Source of the DNA: Alkalihalobacillus sp. AL-G
Lineage (GTDB): Bacteria > Bacillota > Bacilli > Bacillales > Fictibacillaceae
Length of the DNA stretch: 64,000 nucleotides
Direction: 5' to 3'
Assembly (NCBI RefSeq): GCF_030643805.1
Contig: NZ_CP094656.1
Span: 2,542,001-2,606,000, forward strand
Shown: positions 1,642-8,640 of the stretch, piece after piece
Numbering within the stretch: position 1 is the first letter of the stretch
How the letters are laid out: every line of letters starts with the position of its first letter
Notes under the pieces: model-generated
The model's input: the letters and a program-made list of their open reading frames with translations, nothing else
The model's database searches: none
Told to the model about the DNA's origin: nothing
Program-made: the position numbers and the translations under genes

Positions 1642-3189
1642 CTATAAAGGGATGTTTCCGTGTTTTTTGGAAGGACGACTATCCTTTTTGTTACGTAGCA
1701 TATGTAATGCTTGAGCGAGCTTTATCCGTGTTTCTCTTGGGTCGATTACATCATCGACCATACCTCTTGATGCTGCAACATATGGGTTTGCGAATTTTTC
1801 CCGATATTCATCGATCTTCGCATTTCGAGTTTCTTCAGGGTTATTGCTATTTTGGATTTCCCTAGCAAAAATGATATTGGCTGCTCCCTCTGGTCCCATT
1901 ACGGCAATTTCAGCATTTGGCCAGGCGTAGACAAGGTCTGCACCGATCGATTTACTATTTAGGGCCACATAAGCCCCACCGTATGCTTTTCTTGTAATCA
2001 CGGTGATTTTTGGAACGGTCGCCTCAGAATAAGCATAAAGGATTTTCGCTCCATGTCTTATGATACCGCCGTGCTCCTGTTTAATTCCAGGAAAAAAGCC
2101 TGTAACGTCTTCAAATGTAATTAACGGTATATTGAAGCTATCACAAAATCGGATGAATCGAGCAACTTTATCAGAGGAATCGATATCCAATCCACCTGCC
2201 ATCACCTTTGGCTGATTGCAAATCAGACCAATCGACTCCCCTTTTATCCGACCAAAACCGACAACGATATTCCGCGCAAAGTCTTTATGGACCTCCATAA
2301 ATGAATCCTGATCGACTACTTCTAGAATAACATTTCTTACATCGTAAGGGCGAATAGTTTCAAATGGTACGACATCGGCAAGATTTTCTCGATAATCAGA
2401 TTGTTCTTCACCAGATACCCGTTCGGGTTTTTGCTCATTGTTTTGTGGAAGATACTCAAGCAGACGGCGGACCTGGAGCAACGTCTCTTCCTCAGTAGGT
2501 GCGGTAAAATGAGCATTTCCACTTTTGGAACTATGAACCTTTGCTCCACCTAAATCCTCTGAACTGATGTTTTCGCCAGTCACCGTTTCAATTACCTTCG
2601 GACCTGTTATGAACATCTGACTAGTCTGCTCCACCATAAATACAAAATCGGTAATAGCAGGAGAATAGACCGCTCCACCTGCACACGGACCTAAAATCAC
2701 AGAGATTTGCGGAATGACCCCAGAGTAAATCGAATTTCGGTAGAAAATTTGTCCGTACCCATCTAAAGATACGACACCTTCTTGAATTCGTGCCCCGCCT
2801 GAATCGTTCAACCCTATAAAAGGGGCCCCATTTTGCGCAGCAAGGTCCATTACCTTCGCAATCTTTTGTGCGTGCATTTCACCAAGTGCACCACCGAAAA
2901 CGGTAAAATCCTGTGCAAACAAATAAATAGAACGCCCATGGATGGTCCCATAACCGGTTACGACTCCTTCACCGGGTGCACTATTCTTATCCATTCCAAA
3001 ATCCTGATTTCTATGCTCGATAAATGGATTTATTTCTATAAAGCTGTCTTTATCCAGGAGCAAATCGATTCGCTCACGTGCAGTTAATTTTCCTTTTTCA
3101 TGCTGTTTATCGATTCGTTCATCCCCACCGCCCATTTGTACTGTTCTGCGGCGGTCGTAAAGCTCATTGATTTTATCATAGATGTCCAT
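1642..3189 (-). CDS. yqjD: Propionyl-CoA/methylmalonyl-CoA carboxyltransferase (YqjD/MmdA family)
   Basis: A 515-residue biotin-dependent acyl-CoA carboxyltransferase. It transfers CO2 from carboxybiotin to propionyl-CoA, giving methylmalonyl-CoA. The length and both crotonase-like halves fit: the N half has 'GLNDSGGARIQEGV' and 'GPCAGGAVYSPA', the C half has 'TFEDVTGFFPG' and 'KAYGGAYVALNSK'. It lies 2 bp upstream of nothing of its own complex: no dedicated biotin carboxylase or carrier is adjacent, so the AccB/AccC proteins at 42-44 kb or another set may serve it. It follows the B12/epimerase gene by 2 bp, so the genes are probably cotranscribed. Carboxylation of propionyl-CoA is inferred from the mutase and epimerase neighbours. 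Confidence 0.88.
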   Translation of the reverse strand: MDIYDKINELYDRRRTVQMGGGDERIDKQHEKGKLTARERIDLLLDKDSFIEINPFIEHRNQDFGMDKNSAPGEGVVTGYGTIHGRSIYLFAQDFTVFGGALGEMHAQKIAKVMDLAAQNGAPFIGLNDSGGARIQEGVVSLDGYGQIFYRNSIYSGVIPQISVILGPCAGGAVYSPAITDFVFMVEQTSQMFITGPKVIETVTGENISSEDLGGAKVHSSKSGNAHFTAPTEEETLLQVRRLLEYLPQNNEQKPERVSGEEQSDYRENLADVVPFETIRPYDVRNVILEVVDQDSFMEVHKDFARNIVVGFGRIKGESIGLICNQPKVMAGGLDIDSSDKVARFIRFCDSFNIPLITFEDVTGFFPGIKQEHGGIIRHGAKILYAYSEATVPKITVITRKAYGGAYVALNSKSIGADLVYAWPNAEIAVMGPEGAANIIFAREIQNSNNPEETRNAKIDEYREKFANPYVAASRGMVDDVIDPRETRIKLAQALHMLRNKKDSRPSKKHGNIPL

Positions 3190-3191
3190 CT

Positions 3192-4034
3192 TTATATACG
3201 CTCCTTCGATGATTTGTCACATAGTTCATAAAGTACCCCTTGTGTCGATTTCGGGTGCATGAATGCGATCTCTGCGCCCCCCGCTCCAGGCTTAGGTACG
3301 TCATGAATCATCGAGATCCCATTTTCTTTCAGTTGTTGGATCCGCTTTTCAATATTCTCGACTCCAAGAGCGACGTGATGGATTCCAACTCCTCGCTTTT
3401 GAATAAATGAATGGATCGAACTGGATTCATTCGTTGGTTCGAGTAGTTCAATTCGAATATTCCCAGCATTTAGAAAGGCAATCTTCACAGATTCTGACTT
3501 CACTTCTTCGATGCCTTCAAGCTTTAAATGTAGCGTATCTAAATAAAATGGAAGCGACTCGTCAAGCGACTCAACCGCTATCCCGATATGATCAACCTTT
3601 TTCACGATTTCGTTGTCCACATCTAGGTTAATTCCATCGCGCTGATAGACAGCTTTTTCAATGTATTTGGCAGTTTCGATAGAAGGAGTTCCTGGTGTGA
3701 AAATCTTTTGTACACCGTTTTTCTCAAGAAAAGGAATATCCTCCCAAGGAATGACACCACCACCGATGACAATAATCTCCTCTGCTCCCTGTCCTTTTAG
3801 TCCATTTACAACCTCTGGAAACAATTCGTTGTGGGCACCAGAAAGGCAGGACATCCCGATTGCATCCACATCTTCTTGTATAGCGGAAGCAACGATTTGC
3901 TCTGGAGTTTGTCGCAATCCAGTATAAATAACCTCCATTCCATAATCACGTAACGCCTGAGAGATGATTAACGCCCCACGATCATGCCCATCCAAGCCTG
4001 GCTTGGCAATTAAAACACGAATTTTCTTTTTCAT
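3192..4034 (-). CDS. Methylmalonyl-CoA mutase B12-binding subunit fused to methylmalonyl-CoA epimerase
   Basis: A two-domain protein of 280 residues. Residues about 1-135 form a cobalamin-binding domain with the base-off motif DGHDRG (His ligand), SCLSGAH and IGGGVIP. Residues about 145-275 form a vicinal-oxygen-chelate epimerase with metal-ligand regions DHIGIAV, GIHHVAL and VLYELC. The first part completes the mutase encoded upstream; the second interconverts (R)- and (S)-methylmalonyl-CoA. There is no stop or frame change between the domains, so this is a true fusion. In many bacteria the two are separate genes or the B12 domain is the C-terminus of one long mutase. Confidence 0.88.
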   Translation of the reverse strand: MKKKIRVLIAKPGLDGHDRGALIISQALRDYGMEVIYTGLRQTPEQIVASAIQEDVDAIGMSCLSGAHNELFPEVVNGLKGQGAEEIIVIGGGVIPWEDIPFLEKNGVQKIFTPGTPSIETAKYIEKAVYQRDGINLDVDNEIVKKVDHIGIAVESLDESLPFYLDTLHLKLEGIEEVKSESVKIAFLNAGNIRIELLEPTNESSSIHSFIQKRGVGIHHVALGVENIEKRIQQLKENGISMIHDVPKPGAGGAEIAFMHPKSTQGVLYELCDKSSKERI

Positions 4035-4055
4035 TTGTTTTGACCTCCATGTCTC

Positions 4056-5711
4056 CTATATACCCGTAAACTCACCGAATTCTTCTCGTAATACGCCGCA
4101 AATTTCACCAATCGTACAATAGGATCTTACACAATCAACAATCAGCGGCATCAGGTTGTCTTTTCCTTTTGCACCAGCTCTAAGTGCATCTAACTGAGCG
4201 CTCGCTCGTTCATTATCTCTCGTCTGTCGTATTTTAGTGAGCTTCTCGATTTGATGCTCGCGTAAGCTCGGACCAACCCGGTGCAGCTCCGGCTTTGGTT
4301 CATCATCGAGCTTGAATGCGTTCATACCGACGACAATTTGTTCTTCTTTTTCAATCGCCTTTTGTGTTTCATACGATGTGTGGTGAATTTCGCGCTGCAT
4401 GTAACCTTGCTCAACAGCGGAAACTGCCCCGCCAAGCTCTTCGATTTTTTCAAGATATTCATTTGCAGATTGCTCCAGATGGTCCGTTAAGGATTCCACA
4501 TAGTACGAACCTGCAAGGGGATCCACTGTGTCCGCCACACCACTTTCATGTGCAAGAATCTGTTGTGTTCGAAGAGCGATACGTGCCGACTCTTCAGTTG
4601 GCAGGGCTAGTGCTTCATCACGTGAATTCGTATGCAAGCTTTGTGTTCCTCCCAGAACAGCTGAAAGCGCCTGAACGGTGACCCGTACAATATTGTTATC
4701 AGGTTGTTGGGCAGTGAGGGTCGATCCACCTGTTTGAGTATGAAACCGCAACTGCCAGCTTTTCGGATTTTTGGCACCATACGTTTCCTTCATTATTTTC
4801 GCCCACATGCGCCTAGCTGCTCTGAACTTAGCAACCTCTTCAAAAAACTCATTATGAGCATTAAAAAAGAAAGCGAGGCGAGGTGCAAAATGATCAACAT
4901 CCAGACCCGCTTCAAGGGCTGCTTCAACATATGCTTTTCCGTTCGCAATCGTAAACGCAAGCTCCTGTGCCGCTGTCGCACCTGCTTCACGTATGTGATA
5001 GCCGGAAATACTGATTGTATTCCATTTTGGTACATCTGTAGCGCAATAGGCAAAAATATCGGTGATGAGACGCATGGACGGCTTTGGTGGAAAAATGTAC
5101 GTCCCTCTTGCAATGTATTCTTTAAGGATATCGTTTTGAATCGTTCCAGAAATCTGTTCAGCTGAAATCCCTTGTTTTTCAGCGACGACAATGTACATCG
5201 CCAGCAACACAGCTGCGGGTGCATTGATTGTCATTGATGTACTTACTTTATCAAGTGGGATATCCTTCAAAAGTGCTTCCATATCCTCAAGTGAATCAAT
5301 AGCCACCCCAACCTTACCTACCTCACCCCTTGACATCGAATGATCTGAGTCATAACCAATTTGTGTGGGGAGATCAAATGCAACCGATAAACCTGTCTGA
5401 CCTTGCTGCAATAGGTATTGGAAACGATTGTTCGTTTCTTCTGCGGATCCGAAGCCGGCGTATTGTCGCATCGTCCAATACCTTGCACGGTACATGGTCG
5501 GCTGGATTCCTCTAGTAAACGGGTATTGACCAGGCAACCCGAGTTGTTCCATATATGCTGAATCCAATTGATCTGGCAAATATAAGCGGTCAATATCAAT
5601 TTTAGAGGACGTTTCGAACGCTTCTTTACGTTCCGGAAACCTATCCATTAATTTTTTCGTGGTTTCTTGCCATTCTTTGTACAATTTAGAGAAGTCCTTT
5701 TCCTGTTCCAT
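4056..5711 (-). CDS. Methylmalonyl-CoA mutase, catalytic large subunit
   Basis: A 551-residue TIM-barrel domain of the adenosylcobalamin-dependent mutase that rearranges methylmalonyl-CoA to succinyl-CoA. Recognisable blocks are '[20 protein letters not shown]', '[18 protein letters not shown]' and '[20 protein letters not shown]'. It lacks its own B12-binding domain, which the next gene supplies. It is the first gene of the three-gene unit (22 bp to the next). The G-protein chaperone MeaB, often linked to this mutase, is not seen in the window. A cre-like site lies in its upstream region. Confidence 0.92.
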
Positions 5712-5929: not shown

Positions 5930-6019
5930 TTGCGTAGAAAATGGATGAAAATCATCATTTATATCATGATCATTTCAATGTTACTCTCGATTCTAACTAG
6001 TGTTGCCTTCATGTTTTAA
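5930..6019 (+). CDS. prli42: Prli42-like stressosome membrane micropeptide
   Basis: A 29-residue protein with a basic start (MRRKWMK) and a single membrane segment (about residues 8-29) ending in FMF. Start is TTG with AGGAGG ten bases upstream. Charge pattern, length and the LLS-LT-VA-F pattern match Prli42, the small protein reported in Listeria to tether the stressosome at the membrane. It sits just upstream of the encapsulin operon on the same strand. Identity is by pattern only, but the ribosome site and composition make a real gene likely. Confidence 0.7.
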   Translation: MRRKWMKIIIYIMIISMLLSILTSVAFMF

Positions 6020-6081: not shown

Positions 6082-6106
6082 GTTTAGAACGTGAACAAAT
6101 GGGAAA
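6082..6106 (+). promoter_or_regulatory. Candidate sigma-B promoter of the encapsulin operon
   Basis: GTTTAG, a 13-nt spacer, then GGGAAA resembles the sigma-B consensus GTTTAA-N12-15-GGGTAT. It lies 43 bp upstream of the IMEF cargo start and would make the encapsulin a general-stress gene. No Fur-like box is visible in this upstream region, unlike that of the ferredoxin gene. Confidence 0.45.
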
Positions 6107-6148: not shown

Positions 6149-6757
6149 ATGTCTAATCACTTCCCTTTGTTAAAAAACATTTTTACTAGAACAGAGGAAG
6201 CATTAAAGGTCTTCATGGAAGTTCTTGAACCGACAATTGAAAATGCTAAAGATGAACATGAGCGTTTATATTTCCATCATATTTATGAGGAAGAAGAACA
6301 CCGGCAGGACCGTCTAACTGTACTAAACCCAAAGTTGGACTATTTTATTGAACACAACGATGCAGCAGATCGATCGAACCATGAATTTATAAGGTTGCTA
6401 CAAGATATCAGCCTTGAAAAGTTCGGACTTCATAATTTTCTTGAACACTTGGATCTGGCACTCTTTCAATTTAAAGATACCGAGTACGAACCTAGCTTAC
6501 AAAGCTTGCGTGATATGACCAACGAAGATTATCAAGCCATAAAATCTCTTCTTAACGAATTGAATGATCAATTTGAAGGGGCGGCAAACTCTGCTGCTTC
6601 GATTCCAACTGACGAAAAAGAACATGTAGCGAAACACCTTAAGGTTGATAAATATATAAATGACCCGGTAACACAATCATCTTTAACATCGTCTATTACT
6701 ATTGCCAGTCAGAAAAAAAAGCTTACCGTCGGCAGTTTAAAAGGAGGCGATCAATAG
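6149..6757 (+). CDS. IMEF-type encapsulin cargo protein (iron-mineralising, ferritin-like)
   Basis: A 202-residue, mostly helical acidic protein resembling the iron-mineralising encapsulin-associated Firmicute (IMEF) cargo. It oxidises and deposits ferrous iron inside the shell made by the next gene. Helical stretches carry Glu/His clusters (YFHHIYEEEEHRQDR near residues 43-57) suited to a di-iron ferroxidase. After a flexible linker the C-terminus (residues about 189-202) holds the targeting peptide KKKLTVGSLK, which docks on the inner shell. It is transcribed with the shell gene: its TAG stop abuts the shell ATG. An AGAGGAG ribosome site precedes the start. Confidence 0.88.
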   Translation: MSNHFPLLKNIFTRTEEALKVFMEVLEPTIENAKDEHERLYFHHIYEEEEHRQDRLTVLNPKLDYFIEHNDAADRSNHEFIRLLQDISLEKFGLHNFLEHLDLALFQFKDTEYEPSLQSLRDMTNEDYQAIKSLLNELNDQFEGAANSAASIPTDEKEHVAKHLKVDKYINDPVTQSSLTSSITIASQKKKLTVGSLKGGDQ

Positions 6758-7609
6758 ATGAATAAAACGTCAAGATTTGCTGATTCTCCCTTAGGTGATC
6801 GTGATTGGGAACGACTAGATGAAACGATTGTTAATAGTGTCCGCAGACAATTGATCGGCCGTCGATTTATTGATATTTATGGACCACTAGGACAAGGTGT
6901 CCAAACCGTTACAAATGACGTATATGAAGAAAAAGAACATGGTATGATGGGCTACCATGGTGAAAGCCTCCAGTTGACTGAGCCAACGAAAAGGATCAAC
7001 TTGACAGTCCCGCTATTGTACAAAGACTTTATTTTGTACTGGCGGGATATTGAACAAGCGAAAACATTAGATATCCCAGTCGATTTCTCGGCTGCAGCCA
7101 ATGCTGCCGCCCAATCTGCTCTACTAGAGGATGATATGGTATTTAATGGTGCGAAAACGTTTGATATCGACGGGTTGATGAACGTTAAAGGACGCTTGAC
7201 TCATATTCGGGAAGATTGGATGAAGTCGGGGAATGCATTTATGGATGTTGTTGAGGCACGTAACAAATTACTGAAAATGGGACATAGCGGACCCTATGCA
7301 CTGGTTCTTTCACCCTCTTTATATGCCTTGATTCACCGTGTACATGAAGGTACTCATGTTCTTGAAATTGAGCATATCCGTGAGCTTGTTACAGATGGTA
7401 TACATCAATCACCGGTTATAAAAGAGGATTCGGGTGTTCTTGTTGCAACTGGCCGGGAAAATCTTGACCTTGCCATTGCTGAAGATTTTGATTCGGCCTT
7501 TATGGATACTGATAACATGAATTACTTGTTCAGAGTTTATGAAAGCTGTGTCTTAAGAATAAAAAGGCCCTCTTCCATCTGTACACTCGAGTCACCTAAA
7601 AAAAAGTAG
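6758..7609 (+). CDS. Encapsulin shell protein (HK97-fold nanocompartment)
   Basis: A 283-residue family 1 encapsulin. The N-terminal motif 'RDWERLDETIVNSVRRQL' followed by 'GRRFIDIYGPLGQG' is typical, and the cargo gene directly upstream confirms the class. Shells paired with IMEF cargo form large compartments (T=4, 240 subunits in the Quasibacillus homologue) that store tens of thousands of iron atoms. Its ribosome site AAAGGAGG lies inside the last codons of the cargo gene, the ones encoding the targeting peptide, so cargo and shell are tightly coupled. A hairpin terminator follows immediately. Confidence 0.93.
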   Translation: MNKTSRFADSPLGDRDWERLDETIVNSVRRQLIGRRFIDIYGPLGQGVQTVTNDVYEEKEHGMMGYHGESLQLTEPTKRINLTVPLLYKDFILYWRDIEQAKTLDIPVDFSAAANAAAQSALLEDDMVFNGAKTFDIDGLMNVKGRLTHIREDWMKSGNAFMDVVEARNKLLKMGHSGPYALVLSPSLYALIHRVHEGTHVLEIEHIRELVTDGIHQSPVIKEDSGVLVATGRENLDLAIAEDFDSAFMDTDNMNYLFRVYESCVLRIKRPSSICTLESPKKK

Positions 7610-7633
7610 AGTCCCATTAGGATTCTACTTTTA
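7601..7633. terminator. Bidirectional terminator after the encapsulin gene
   Basis: AAAAAGTAGAGTCC pairs with GGATTCTACTTTT around a short loop, with one mismatch. A- and T-rich flanks on both sides would let it end both the encapsulin operon and the opposing gene at 7649. Confidence 0.75.
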
Positions 7634-7648
7634 CTCTTTTGTACTCTA

Positions 7649-8119
7649 TTATGCAATTTTTATGATTTTCGAATTAAATTCTTTATTCAGCTGTTTTAAT
7701 TCACGTTCTCTCTCAATAGCATCCATACCGATGTCATCTAGGATCGCTTGAACTTCTTCCCAAAAAATCTGTGTGAAGGAACCCTCGTTTACTTCACAAA
7801 GACGTATTAAGTAGTCGATCCTCTGTTTCGTTTTGAGTTTTTTACAGTAACTGTTTTTCAATTCTTTAATCGGACAATGCCGTGTTGACGTCATTATACT
7901 AATGTCATGAACATTGACAATGTAATGCTCGCCTTCATCCGAAATAAAACCGATCGAATAAAAAGTTGCTCCAGAGTAATCGACGTTGGTAATTACAGGG
8001 TATGTAAATTCTTCACCCGTACTCAAACGAATTCGATTCGCTTCAATAGCTCCACCTAGTTTTCTCTCGTTTGTAATCAATGTGTGCATATCAGTGAAAC
8101 CATGTACATCGTAATTCAT
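7649..8119 (-). CDS. Uncharacterised protein with a Fur-box promoter, encapsulin neighbour
   Basis: A 156-residue soluble protein I do not recognise. It starts at an ATG preceded by AAGGAGG. The first half looks beta-rich (IRLSTGEEFTYPVITNVDYS); the second half is charged and helical (ELKNSYCKKLKTKQRIDYL). It has three cysteines (HCP, YCK, LCE), no signal peptide or membrane segment, and no LTVGSLK targeting peptide at either end. It lies between the shell gene and the ferredoxin gene, transcribed away from the latter. A near-consensus promoter (TTGACA-N17-TAAAAT) has a Fur-like palindrome exactly in its spacer. An iron-starvation role linked to encapsulin iron release is an inference. Confidence 0.8.
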   Translation of the reverse strand: MNYDVHGFTDMHTLITNERKLGGAIEANRIRLSTGEEFTYPVITNVDYSGATFYSIGFISDEGEHYIVNVHDISIMTSTRHCPIKELKNSYCKKLKTKQRIDYLIRLCEVNEGSFTQIFWEEVQAILDDIGMDAIERERELKQLNKEFNSKIIKIA

Positions 8120-8136
8120 GAGAGTTCCTCCTTAAC

Positions 8137-8194
8137 GATAATCGTTCTCATTGATATTCATTCTCATTTTATATGAGAATCGTTCTCATGTCAA
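8137..8194. promoter_or_regulatory. Fur-box cluster and divergent promoter region
   Basis: Three Fur-like 7-1-7 elements: a half-conserved one at 8137-8150 (GATAATCGTTCTCA), one at 8152-8166 (TGATATTCATTCTCA) and a perfect palindrome at 8174-8188 (TGAGAATCGTTCTCA). On the minus strand TTGACA (8194-8189) and TAAAAT (8171-8166) are separated by 17 bp, and the palindrome fills most of that spacer, the ideal place for repression. The region separates the unknown gene and the ferredoxin gene. Consensus used: TGATAATNATTATCA. Confidence 0.8.
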
Positions 8195-8268
8195 CGAGTA
8201 AATTATGATTTTCGGAACATTTCATAAAAAAACGTAATGTTTCGTATGCTATGAAAGGATGGTTGAAG

Positions 8269-8640
8269 GTGAAAAAAGCCTTAACAGTGGGGTCTCTTAA
8301 ACAAAATGCAATTGTTGAAGTGTCGAAGGAAGTTTCAGGTGCCGCTAATACGTCGGAAGCGACGATCAAGAATACTACAACAACTGAAAAGATCTATTTT
8401 ATACAAAATCGAAGAAGCTGCACTATTCCTTTTAAAAAATGGTCAACTGTATTAGATACTGCCTTGGCGAATGGTTGTCAGTTGGATTTTAAATGCAAAA
8501 AAGGAATATGCGGAAAATGTGAGATTCATGTCCTAAAGGGGATGGACAGACTAACATCACCGAACGGAGTTGAACAGAAAAACCTTGGTTCTAATCTTCA
8601 TTCAGGACACCGGCTTTCTTGCCAAGCACGAATGAAGTAA
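8269..8640 (+). CDS. [2Fe-2S] ferredoxin with an N-terminal encapsulin targeting peptide
   Basis: Read from GTG at 8269 (AAAGGA nine bases upstream), this is 123 residues. Residues 2-11 (KKALTVGSLK) repeat the targeting motif found at the C-terminus of the IMEF cargo. Residues about 14-40 are a Ser/Thr/Ala-rich linker. The rest is a plant-type ferredoxin fold with cluster ligands Cys76, Cys81, Cys84 (C-x4-C-x2-C) and Cys118. In known IMEF systems such a ferredoxin is co-packaged and thought to reduce stored ferric iron for release. Its upstream region holds Fur-like boxes, fitting release under iron starvation. An ATG at 8251 is in frame but lacks a ribosome site. Confidence 0.9.
   Translation: MKKALTVGSLKQNAIVEVSKEVSGAANTSEATIKNTTTTEKIYFIQNRRSCTIPFKKWSTVLDTALANGCQLDFKCKKGICGKCEIHVLKGMDRLTSPNGVEQKNLGSNLHSGHRLSCQARMK

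Follow-up and report, generated by a model that had tools for sequence, protein, structure and literature searches.

We analysed a stretch of 64,000 nucleotides (nt) from Alkalihalobacillus sp. AL-G (contig NZ_CP094656.1, positions 2,542,001 to 2,606,000), hereafter the window, which belongs to a genome of 4.16 Mb on a single contig. The closest named relative of this strain by IMEF identity is Pseudalkalibacillus decolorationis (85%). The window contains an encapsulin iron store whose genes lie in the order IMEF cargo, shell, an unnamed minus-strand gene (U156) and ferredoxin. The original prediction, made on this DNA from its letters alone, had placed the shell gene between two cargo genes. 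The shell is indeed located there, but not alone, as the gene at 7649-8119 on the minus strand, encoding 156 residues, also stands between the cargos. The features of the locus are the following:

6149-6757, plus strand: IMEF ferritin-like cargo, 202 residues (TIGR04536, 251.3 bits, cut-off 100; PF24309, 192.9 bits)
6758-7609, plus strand: family-1 encapsulin shell, 283 residues (NF041155, 286.6 bits; PF04454, 243.1 bits)
7649-8119, minus strand: U156, unnamed gene of 156 residues, convergent with the shell gene (relatives in 73 of 75 IMEF loci; co-occurrence; structural model)
8251-8640, plus strand: plant-type [2Fe-2S] ferredoxin with the N-terminal tag KKALTVGSLK (PF00111, E 8.5e-10)
8136-8150 (11/14), 8152-8166 (12/14) and 8174-8188 (11/14), no strand assigned: three Fur-like boxes, by consensus match
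8194-8189 and 8171-8166, minus strand: SigA-like promoter of U156, TTGACA and TAAAAT separated by 17 nt, with a Fur box in the spacer
6082-6087 and 6101-6106, plus strand: SigB-like promoter of the IMEF-shell genes, GTTTAG and GGGAAA separated by 13 nt (11 of 12 positions)

Co-occurrence of U156 with IMEF

U156 co-occurs near-strictly with IMEF in the sampled order and class. In a set of 75 IMEF loci, comprising the window, locus L013 and 73 named loci, relatives of U156 are present in 73, the shell in 74 and the ferredoxin in 66, which makes U156 more constant in IMEF loci than the ferredoxin itself. Of the two loci lacking U156, L045 is a metagenome contig and L089 a decayed remnant of IMEF. 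The arrangement of the genes varies: 29 loci have IMEF, shell and ferredoxin in a row with U156 convergent, 27 resemble the window, 8 are devoid of ferredoxin, 6 carry a minus-strand ferredoxin upstream of U156 and 5 are singletons.

At the level of whole genomes, 34 genomes of the order sample (n = 397) have U156, all of them IMEF-positive, and 35 have IMEF; in the class sample (n = 398), U156 is found in 51 genomes and IMEF in 50, all 50 being also positive for U156. The corresponding hypergeometric probabilities, 1.9e-48 for the order and 3.9e-63 for the class, take genomes as independent and are descriptive only. When the shell family was searched in 299 genomes, 24 of the 25 strong matches (E below 1e-60) belonged to genomes with both IMEF and U156; the remaining one (G204) has neither, and seven further genomes with weak, phage-like shell matches have no U156.

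The association extends beyond simple adjacency. Where a genome carries two IMEF loci, it also carries two U156 genes (L026/L028; L042/L049; G572), and U156 is kept at about 9-10 kb from IMEF in G737 and G761 and on another contig in G537. Among eight further genomes or loci chosen as odd cases, the shell next to U156 comes with a shortened, tagged IMEF-like cargo in G478 and G554, and no cargo was recognised in G427. Within the genus of AL-G, one genome (G029) lacks both IMEF and U156. The window protein matched none of 72,556 plasmid records.

In L138 (5797-7568), U156 and shell genes are present and neither IMEF nor a tagged short open reading frame was recognised. The family-1 shell of L177 (5284-6180), whose genome has neither IMEF nor U156, lies near a predicted copper-oxidase-like open reading frame, named by eye.

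Control regions of the storage genes, U156 and ferredoxin

Fur-like boxes were searched within 250 nt upstream of each gene with the consensus TGATAATNATTATCA, which has 14 informative positions; the idea of a 7-1-7 Fur box is stated in PMC7762939. Upstream of U156, a box of at least 12/14 is present in 67 of 73 loci and one of 11/14 in 72 of 73. The background for such matches was 0.8% and 7.8%, respectively, in shuffled sequences, and 1.5% (12/805) and 4.2% in control regions that precede other genes in these loci. In a thinned set of 45 loci, the box reached at least 12/14 in 39, and among 43 further U156 genes, 24 of which repeat earlier loci, 12/14 was reached by 15 of the remaining 19. 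A count of 8-mers that makes no use of the consensus led to the same element: the top word upstream of U156, GATAATGA, occurs in 21 of 45 loci, where 0.47 would be expected and shuffles reach at most 9, and the top words are Fur half-sites.

A SigA-like promoter of at least 10/12 accompanies U156 in 64 of 73 loci versus 7.4 expected, an excess inflated in part by promoter-like Fur half-sites, and 67 of the 72 SigA-like promoters of U156 scoring at least 9/12 are overlapped by a Fur box. In the window, one box fills the 17-nt spacer of this promoter and two more follow.

The original prediction had assigned Fur control to the ferredoxin, an assignment that calls for revision: the boxes at 8136-8188 lie in a region shared with U156, and across loci the box follows U156 rather than the ferredoxin. 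Boxes of 12/14 precede the ferredoxin at 23 of the 66 loci that have one, and each of these 23 is among the 27 in which it is divergent from U156, where a box of at least 11/14 is found in 27 of 27. For the remaining 39 ferredoxins, no 12/14 box lies within 250 nt, and U156 keeps its own where the ferredoxin belongs to the IMEF-shell operon. The promoters point in the same direction, with SigA-like scores in the window of 11/12 toward U156 versus 9/12 toward the ferredoxin and, in the divergent loci, sites of at least 10/12 toward U156 in 23 of 27 and toward the ferredoxin in 3 of 27. Upstream of IMEF, a 12/14 box occurs in 8 of 75 loci.

SigB promoters have the consensus GTTTAA-N12-15-GGGWAW. 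The stress-like promoter that had been proposed for the storage genes is a real motif in the window, but a far from universal one: a SigB-like site of at least 11/12 is enriched upstream of IMEF (14 of 75 loci versus 2.2 expected; 12 of 45 after thinning), and none was detected upstream of U156 or the ferredoxin in the 75-locus set. No 8-mer upstream of IMEF exceeded the shuffle maximum. The site hints at a trait of certain lineages and no rule. As the Fur box tracks U156 and the SigA-like promoter faces it, the conserved regulatory contrast in these sequences appears to be that between the storage genes and U156, with the ferredoxin on either side depending on the lineage. The genome encodes three members of the FUR family and a SigB (408 bits, cut-off 315).

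The region upstream of IMEF also includes a 29-residue open reading frame with a TTG start (5930-6019, plus strand) that matches Prli42, a stressosome-associated miniprotein (NF033880, 35.3 bits, cut-off 27.5). Prli42 is linked to SigB signalling. A search with a narrow sequence pattern placed similar frames upstream of IMEF in L017 and L020 as well, hence in 3 of the 75 loci. Farther upstream, at 1642-5711 on the minus strand, there are genes for methylmalonyl-CoA mutase subunits, an epimerase and a carboxylase-like protein; the mutase, B12-binding and epimerase domains were matched by profile, and the carboxylase-like gene (1642-3189) was judged by eye.

Targeting peptides and ferredoxin type

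The near-identical LTVGSLK tags noted on IMEF and the ferredoxin are real and conserved. The C-terminal tag is present in 74 of 75 IMEF frames and the N-terminal one in 65 of 66 linked ferredoxins, far above chance, and the single exception in each set is the decayed locus L089. At that locus, from Geobacillus thermodenitrificans, untagged remnants of IMEF and ferredoxin are found and shell and U156 are absent. In the window, the IMEF cargo had been read as ending in KKKLTVGSLK; the peptide is there, near the C-terminus, but is followed by GGDQ and is therefore not terminal. On the ferredoxin side, the likelier start is GTG 8269, giving VKKALTVGSLK, because AAAGGA lies just upstream (by eye) and the open frame of L017 starts at the same V. 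At the position that follows TVGSL, cargo and ferredoxin tend to carry the same residue: 24 of 64 pairs, non-independent since the species are related, are K/K, 20 are I/I, 9 are K/I and 11 are other combinations.

A scan of the frames without an assigned role in the IMEF loci yielded five further tag matches, none of them convincing and none in U156. Two shortened IMEF-like cargos, L139 6137-6670 (E 6.6e-4) and L140 6704-7045 (E 1.1e-8), match the family in its first part alone, carry a C-terminal TVGSL-like tag and are adjoined by shell and U156; they possibly represent a reduced cargo type. In AL-G itself, the genome has one shell gene, that of the window, which is also the sole PF04454 match, and there is one gene of the PF00210 ferritin superfamily.

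The two-tag IMEF store is already known, and most of its interpretation is in print. Ferredoxin was reported in 70% of 71 IMEF operons (PMC6668986), and the [2Fe-2S] ferredoxins of these operons have been described as carrying an N-terminal TVGSL motif, co-purifying with IMEF shells and being proposed reducers of stored iron (PMC8346489, PMC11202242). The association of IMEF systems with ferredoxins and a possible reducing role for the latter had also been stated in the original prediction. Its statement that the tags show both cargos to be loaded agrees with the published motif and co-purification, but goes further than the evidence, as encapsulation of the ferredoxin is called unclear in PMC11202242.

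Regarding the type of ferredoxin, the cysteines of the window protein follow the plant-type pattern CX4CX2CXnC. Bfd-type proteins have the pattern CxC...CxxC. Of the 66 linked ferredoxins, a set gathered with a plant-type seed, all show the plant-type pattern and none the Bfd-type. Bfd-type candidates near IMEF were discarded: 3 of 3266 short frames fit the pattern, apparently chance frames. The description of the IMEF ferredoxin as homologous to Bfd (PMC6668986, PMC8346489) is thus not borne out by the cysteine pattern in the examined loci.

Possible role of U156 in the management of stored iron

The U156 protein of the window has no match in Pfam or NCBIfam at E 0.1. Pfam searches with 41 members were uninformative: a single member gave a weak RemA-like match (E 0.023), and of the 26 families matched, the 25 listed do not include Hfq. 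Searches of PHROGs returned only an unnamed family (E 0.0033), and the 18 rows from the PDB sequence search, for the most part consensus TPR repeats in which weak stretches had been added up, are meaningless. The structural model, in turn, was obtained with a predicted local distance difference test score of 87.3 and predicts an N-terminal helix and a small five-stranded beta-barrel, Hfq/Sm-like, followed by further helices. Hfq or small nuclear ribonucleoprotein (snRNP)/spliceosome entries account for 35 of the 50 matches listed in the fold search with this protein and for 47 of the 50 listed with a relative that is 37% identical to it; the alignments cover the N-terminal helix and the barrel, and the best Foldseek match is Synechocystis Hfq (probability 1.00). 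In this prediction, U156 resembles Hfq/Sm-fold proteins in its helix and small barrel, but it differs from Hfq in its lack of profile homology and its additional C-terminal helices, and the genome has one true Hfq gene of its own, separate from U156. Membership in the Hfq family was rejected, with an hhalign probability of 0.2% against 19 Bacillales Hfq proteins, the same as for decoys. U156 as a tagged cargo was also discarded, as no TVGSL-like motif was seen by eye in 73 sequences. The last residue is Ala in 71 of 73, mostly after I, F or L, in a tail modelled with low confidence; this tail could be a docking or degradation motif.

Our preferred reading, to which we assign a probability of about 0.65, is that U156 is a control factor induced by iron starvation and dedicated to IMEF stores. 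From a putatively Fur-repressed promoter and a near-strict dependence on IMEF, we infer that Fur represses U156, that iron shortage would induce it and that it would act directly on this store. In the model we propose, a ferroxidase cargo and a ferredoxin, the former tagged near its C-terminus and the latter at its N-terminus with the same peptide, would share one shell. With plentiful iron, Fur would repress U156 and the IMEF-shell operon, driven in part by a SigB-like promoter, would store iron; once iron is short, U156 would be made and storage would be turned to release, or further storage halted. Whether U156 founds an unreported family, that of a Fur-repressed Sm-fold protein docking on the IMEF shell or its mRNA and triggering the switch from storage to release, as a missing third core component that would also belong to the structurally characterised locus of Quasibacillus thermotolerans, we consider evenly balanced.

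The target could be the shell or an RNA. Protein distances over 38 loci correlate most closely between U156 and the shell (r 0.93, partial 0.72), followed by IMEF and U156 (r 0.86, partial 0.35) and shell and IMEF (r 0.85, partial 0.28); the ferredoxin correlates with the other three at r 0.43 to 0.49. Because U156 changes in step with the shell, action on the shell protein would be slightly favoured over RNA. The predicted Hfq/snRNP-like fold and the Synechocystis Hfq match, on the other hand, suggest an RNA target, and with it a regulator that binds RNA and blocks translation of the IMEF-shell mRNA in iron shortage without acting on the shell, as an iron-sparing response confined to storage; this alternative is a tentative one, clearly less probable than the dedicated control factor acting on the store. 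A transcription factor for the IMEF-shell promoter would also fit a dedicated, Fur-boxed neighbour, and the RemA-like match could be read in its favour, but that match is isolated among the 41 members, no helix-turn-helix family was matched in Pfam and no operator-like 8-mer is conserved upstream of IMEF, which render it improbable.

The two remaining explanations leave U156 without a part in the store. The Fur boxes might serve the ferredoxin as the release factor, U156 being a bystander; in the 27 divergent loci they do lie in the shared region, and the ferredoxin may be co-regulated there, but the other 39 ferredoxin loci have no 12/14 box whereas U156 retains its own, and the SigA-like promoters of the divergent loci mostly face U156. 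We hold this unlikely. Hitchhiking, in which an iron-storage island that is mobile or tightly linked carries an unrelated gene along, would be in line with the adjacency of U156 in most loci and with the joint absence of IMEF and U156 from G029, yet U156 is kept on another contig in G537 and is retained in genomes with two systems, and its control region is conserved in the 45 thinned loci, so that hitchhiking seems about as improbable as the transcription factor.

Several points weigh against a dedicated, iron-responsive control factor. The order and class samples overlap and are phylogenetically structured, IMEF reaches the family cut-off in 31 of 397 and 47 of 398 genomes and was weak in the others counted as having it, and the distance correlations are uncorrected for species relatedness. 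The one genome of the order sample with IMEF but no U156 (G409) has merely a fragment of IMEF, 62 residues long and located on a short contig, and another genome (G427) has U156 beside a shell without a recognised IMEF. Moreover, 6 of 73 U156 genes lack a 12/14 box, the Fur, SigA and SigB sites are consensus matches, and U156 has no targeting peptide.

Together, our findings suggest that U156, and not the ferredoxin, would be the conserved iron-responsive partner of the IMEF store, which corrects the regulatory picture. U156 looks like the missing control part of this store and could help explain how iron is managed; being dedicated to the store and having a promoter covered by Fur boxes, the gene offers a direct handle on the management of stored iron. 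In the literature covered, to which subscription papers, figures and supplements do not belong, neither U156 nor a control of IMEF loci by Fur was found mentioned.

The IMEF encapsulin of Quasibacillus thermotolerans (PMC6668986) agrees with the window in cargo family, shell family and C-terminal targeting peptide, and L068 (Bacillus thermotolerans SGZ-8), a locus that also has U156, shares its C-terminal residues (HKKKGFTVGSLIQ) with the construct of that work. The available text of the same paper names ferredoxin and ferrochelatase as IMEF-associated genes, not U156, and leaves Fur undiscussed; the window differs in that U156 separates the ferredoxin from the shell. The bacterioferritin/Bfd system likewise couples a store with a differentially expressed [2Fe-2S] release partner, the loss of Bfd in P. 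aeruginosa resulting in irreversible iron deposition (PMC7762939), although the IMEF-linked ferredoxins examined here, unlike Bfd, carry the plant-type cysteine pattern. A change of priorities in iron shortage is also brought about in B. subtilis by the FsrA iron-sparing response, which is likewise under Fur control (PMC11202242). FsrA governs a general regulon, whereas U156 would be a single protein linked to a single storage system. FbpABC are also part of the B. subtilis iron-sparing response.

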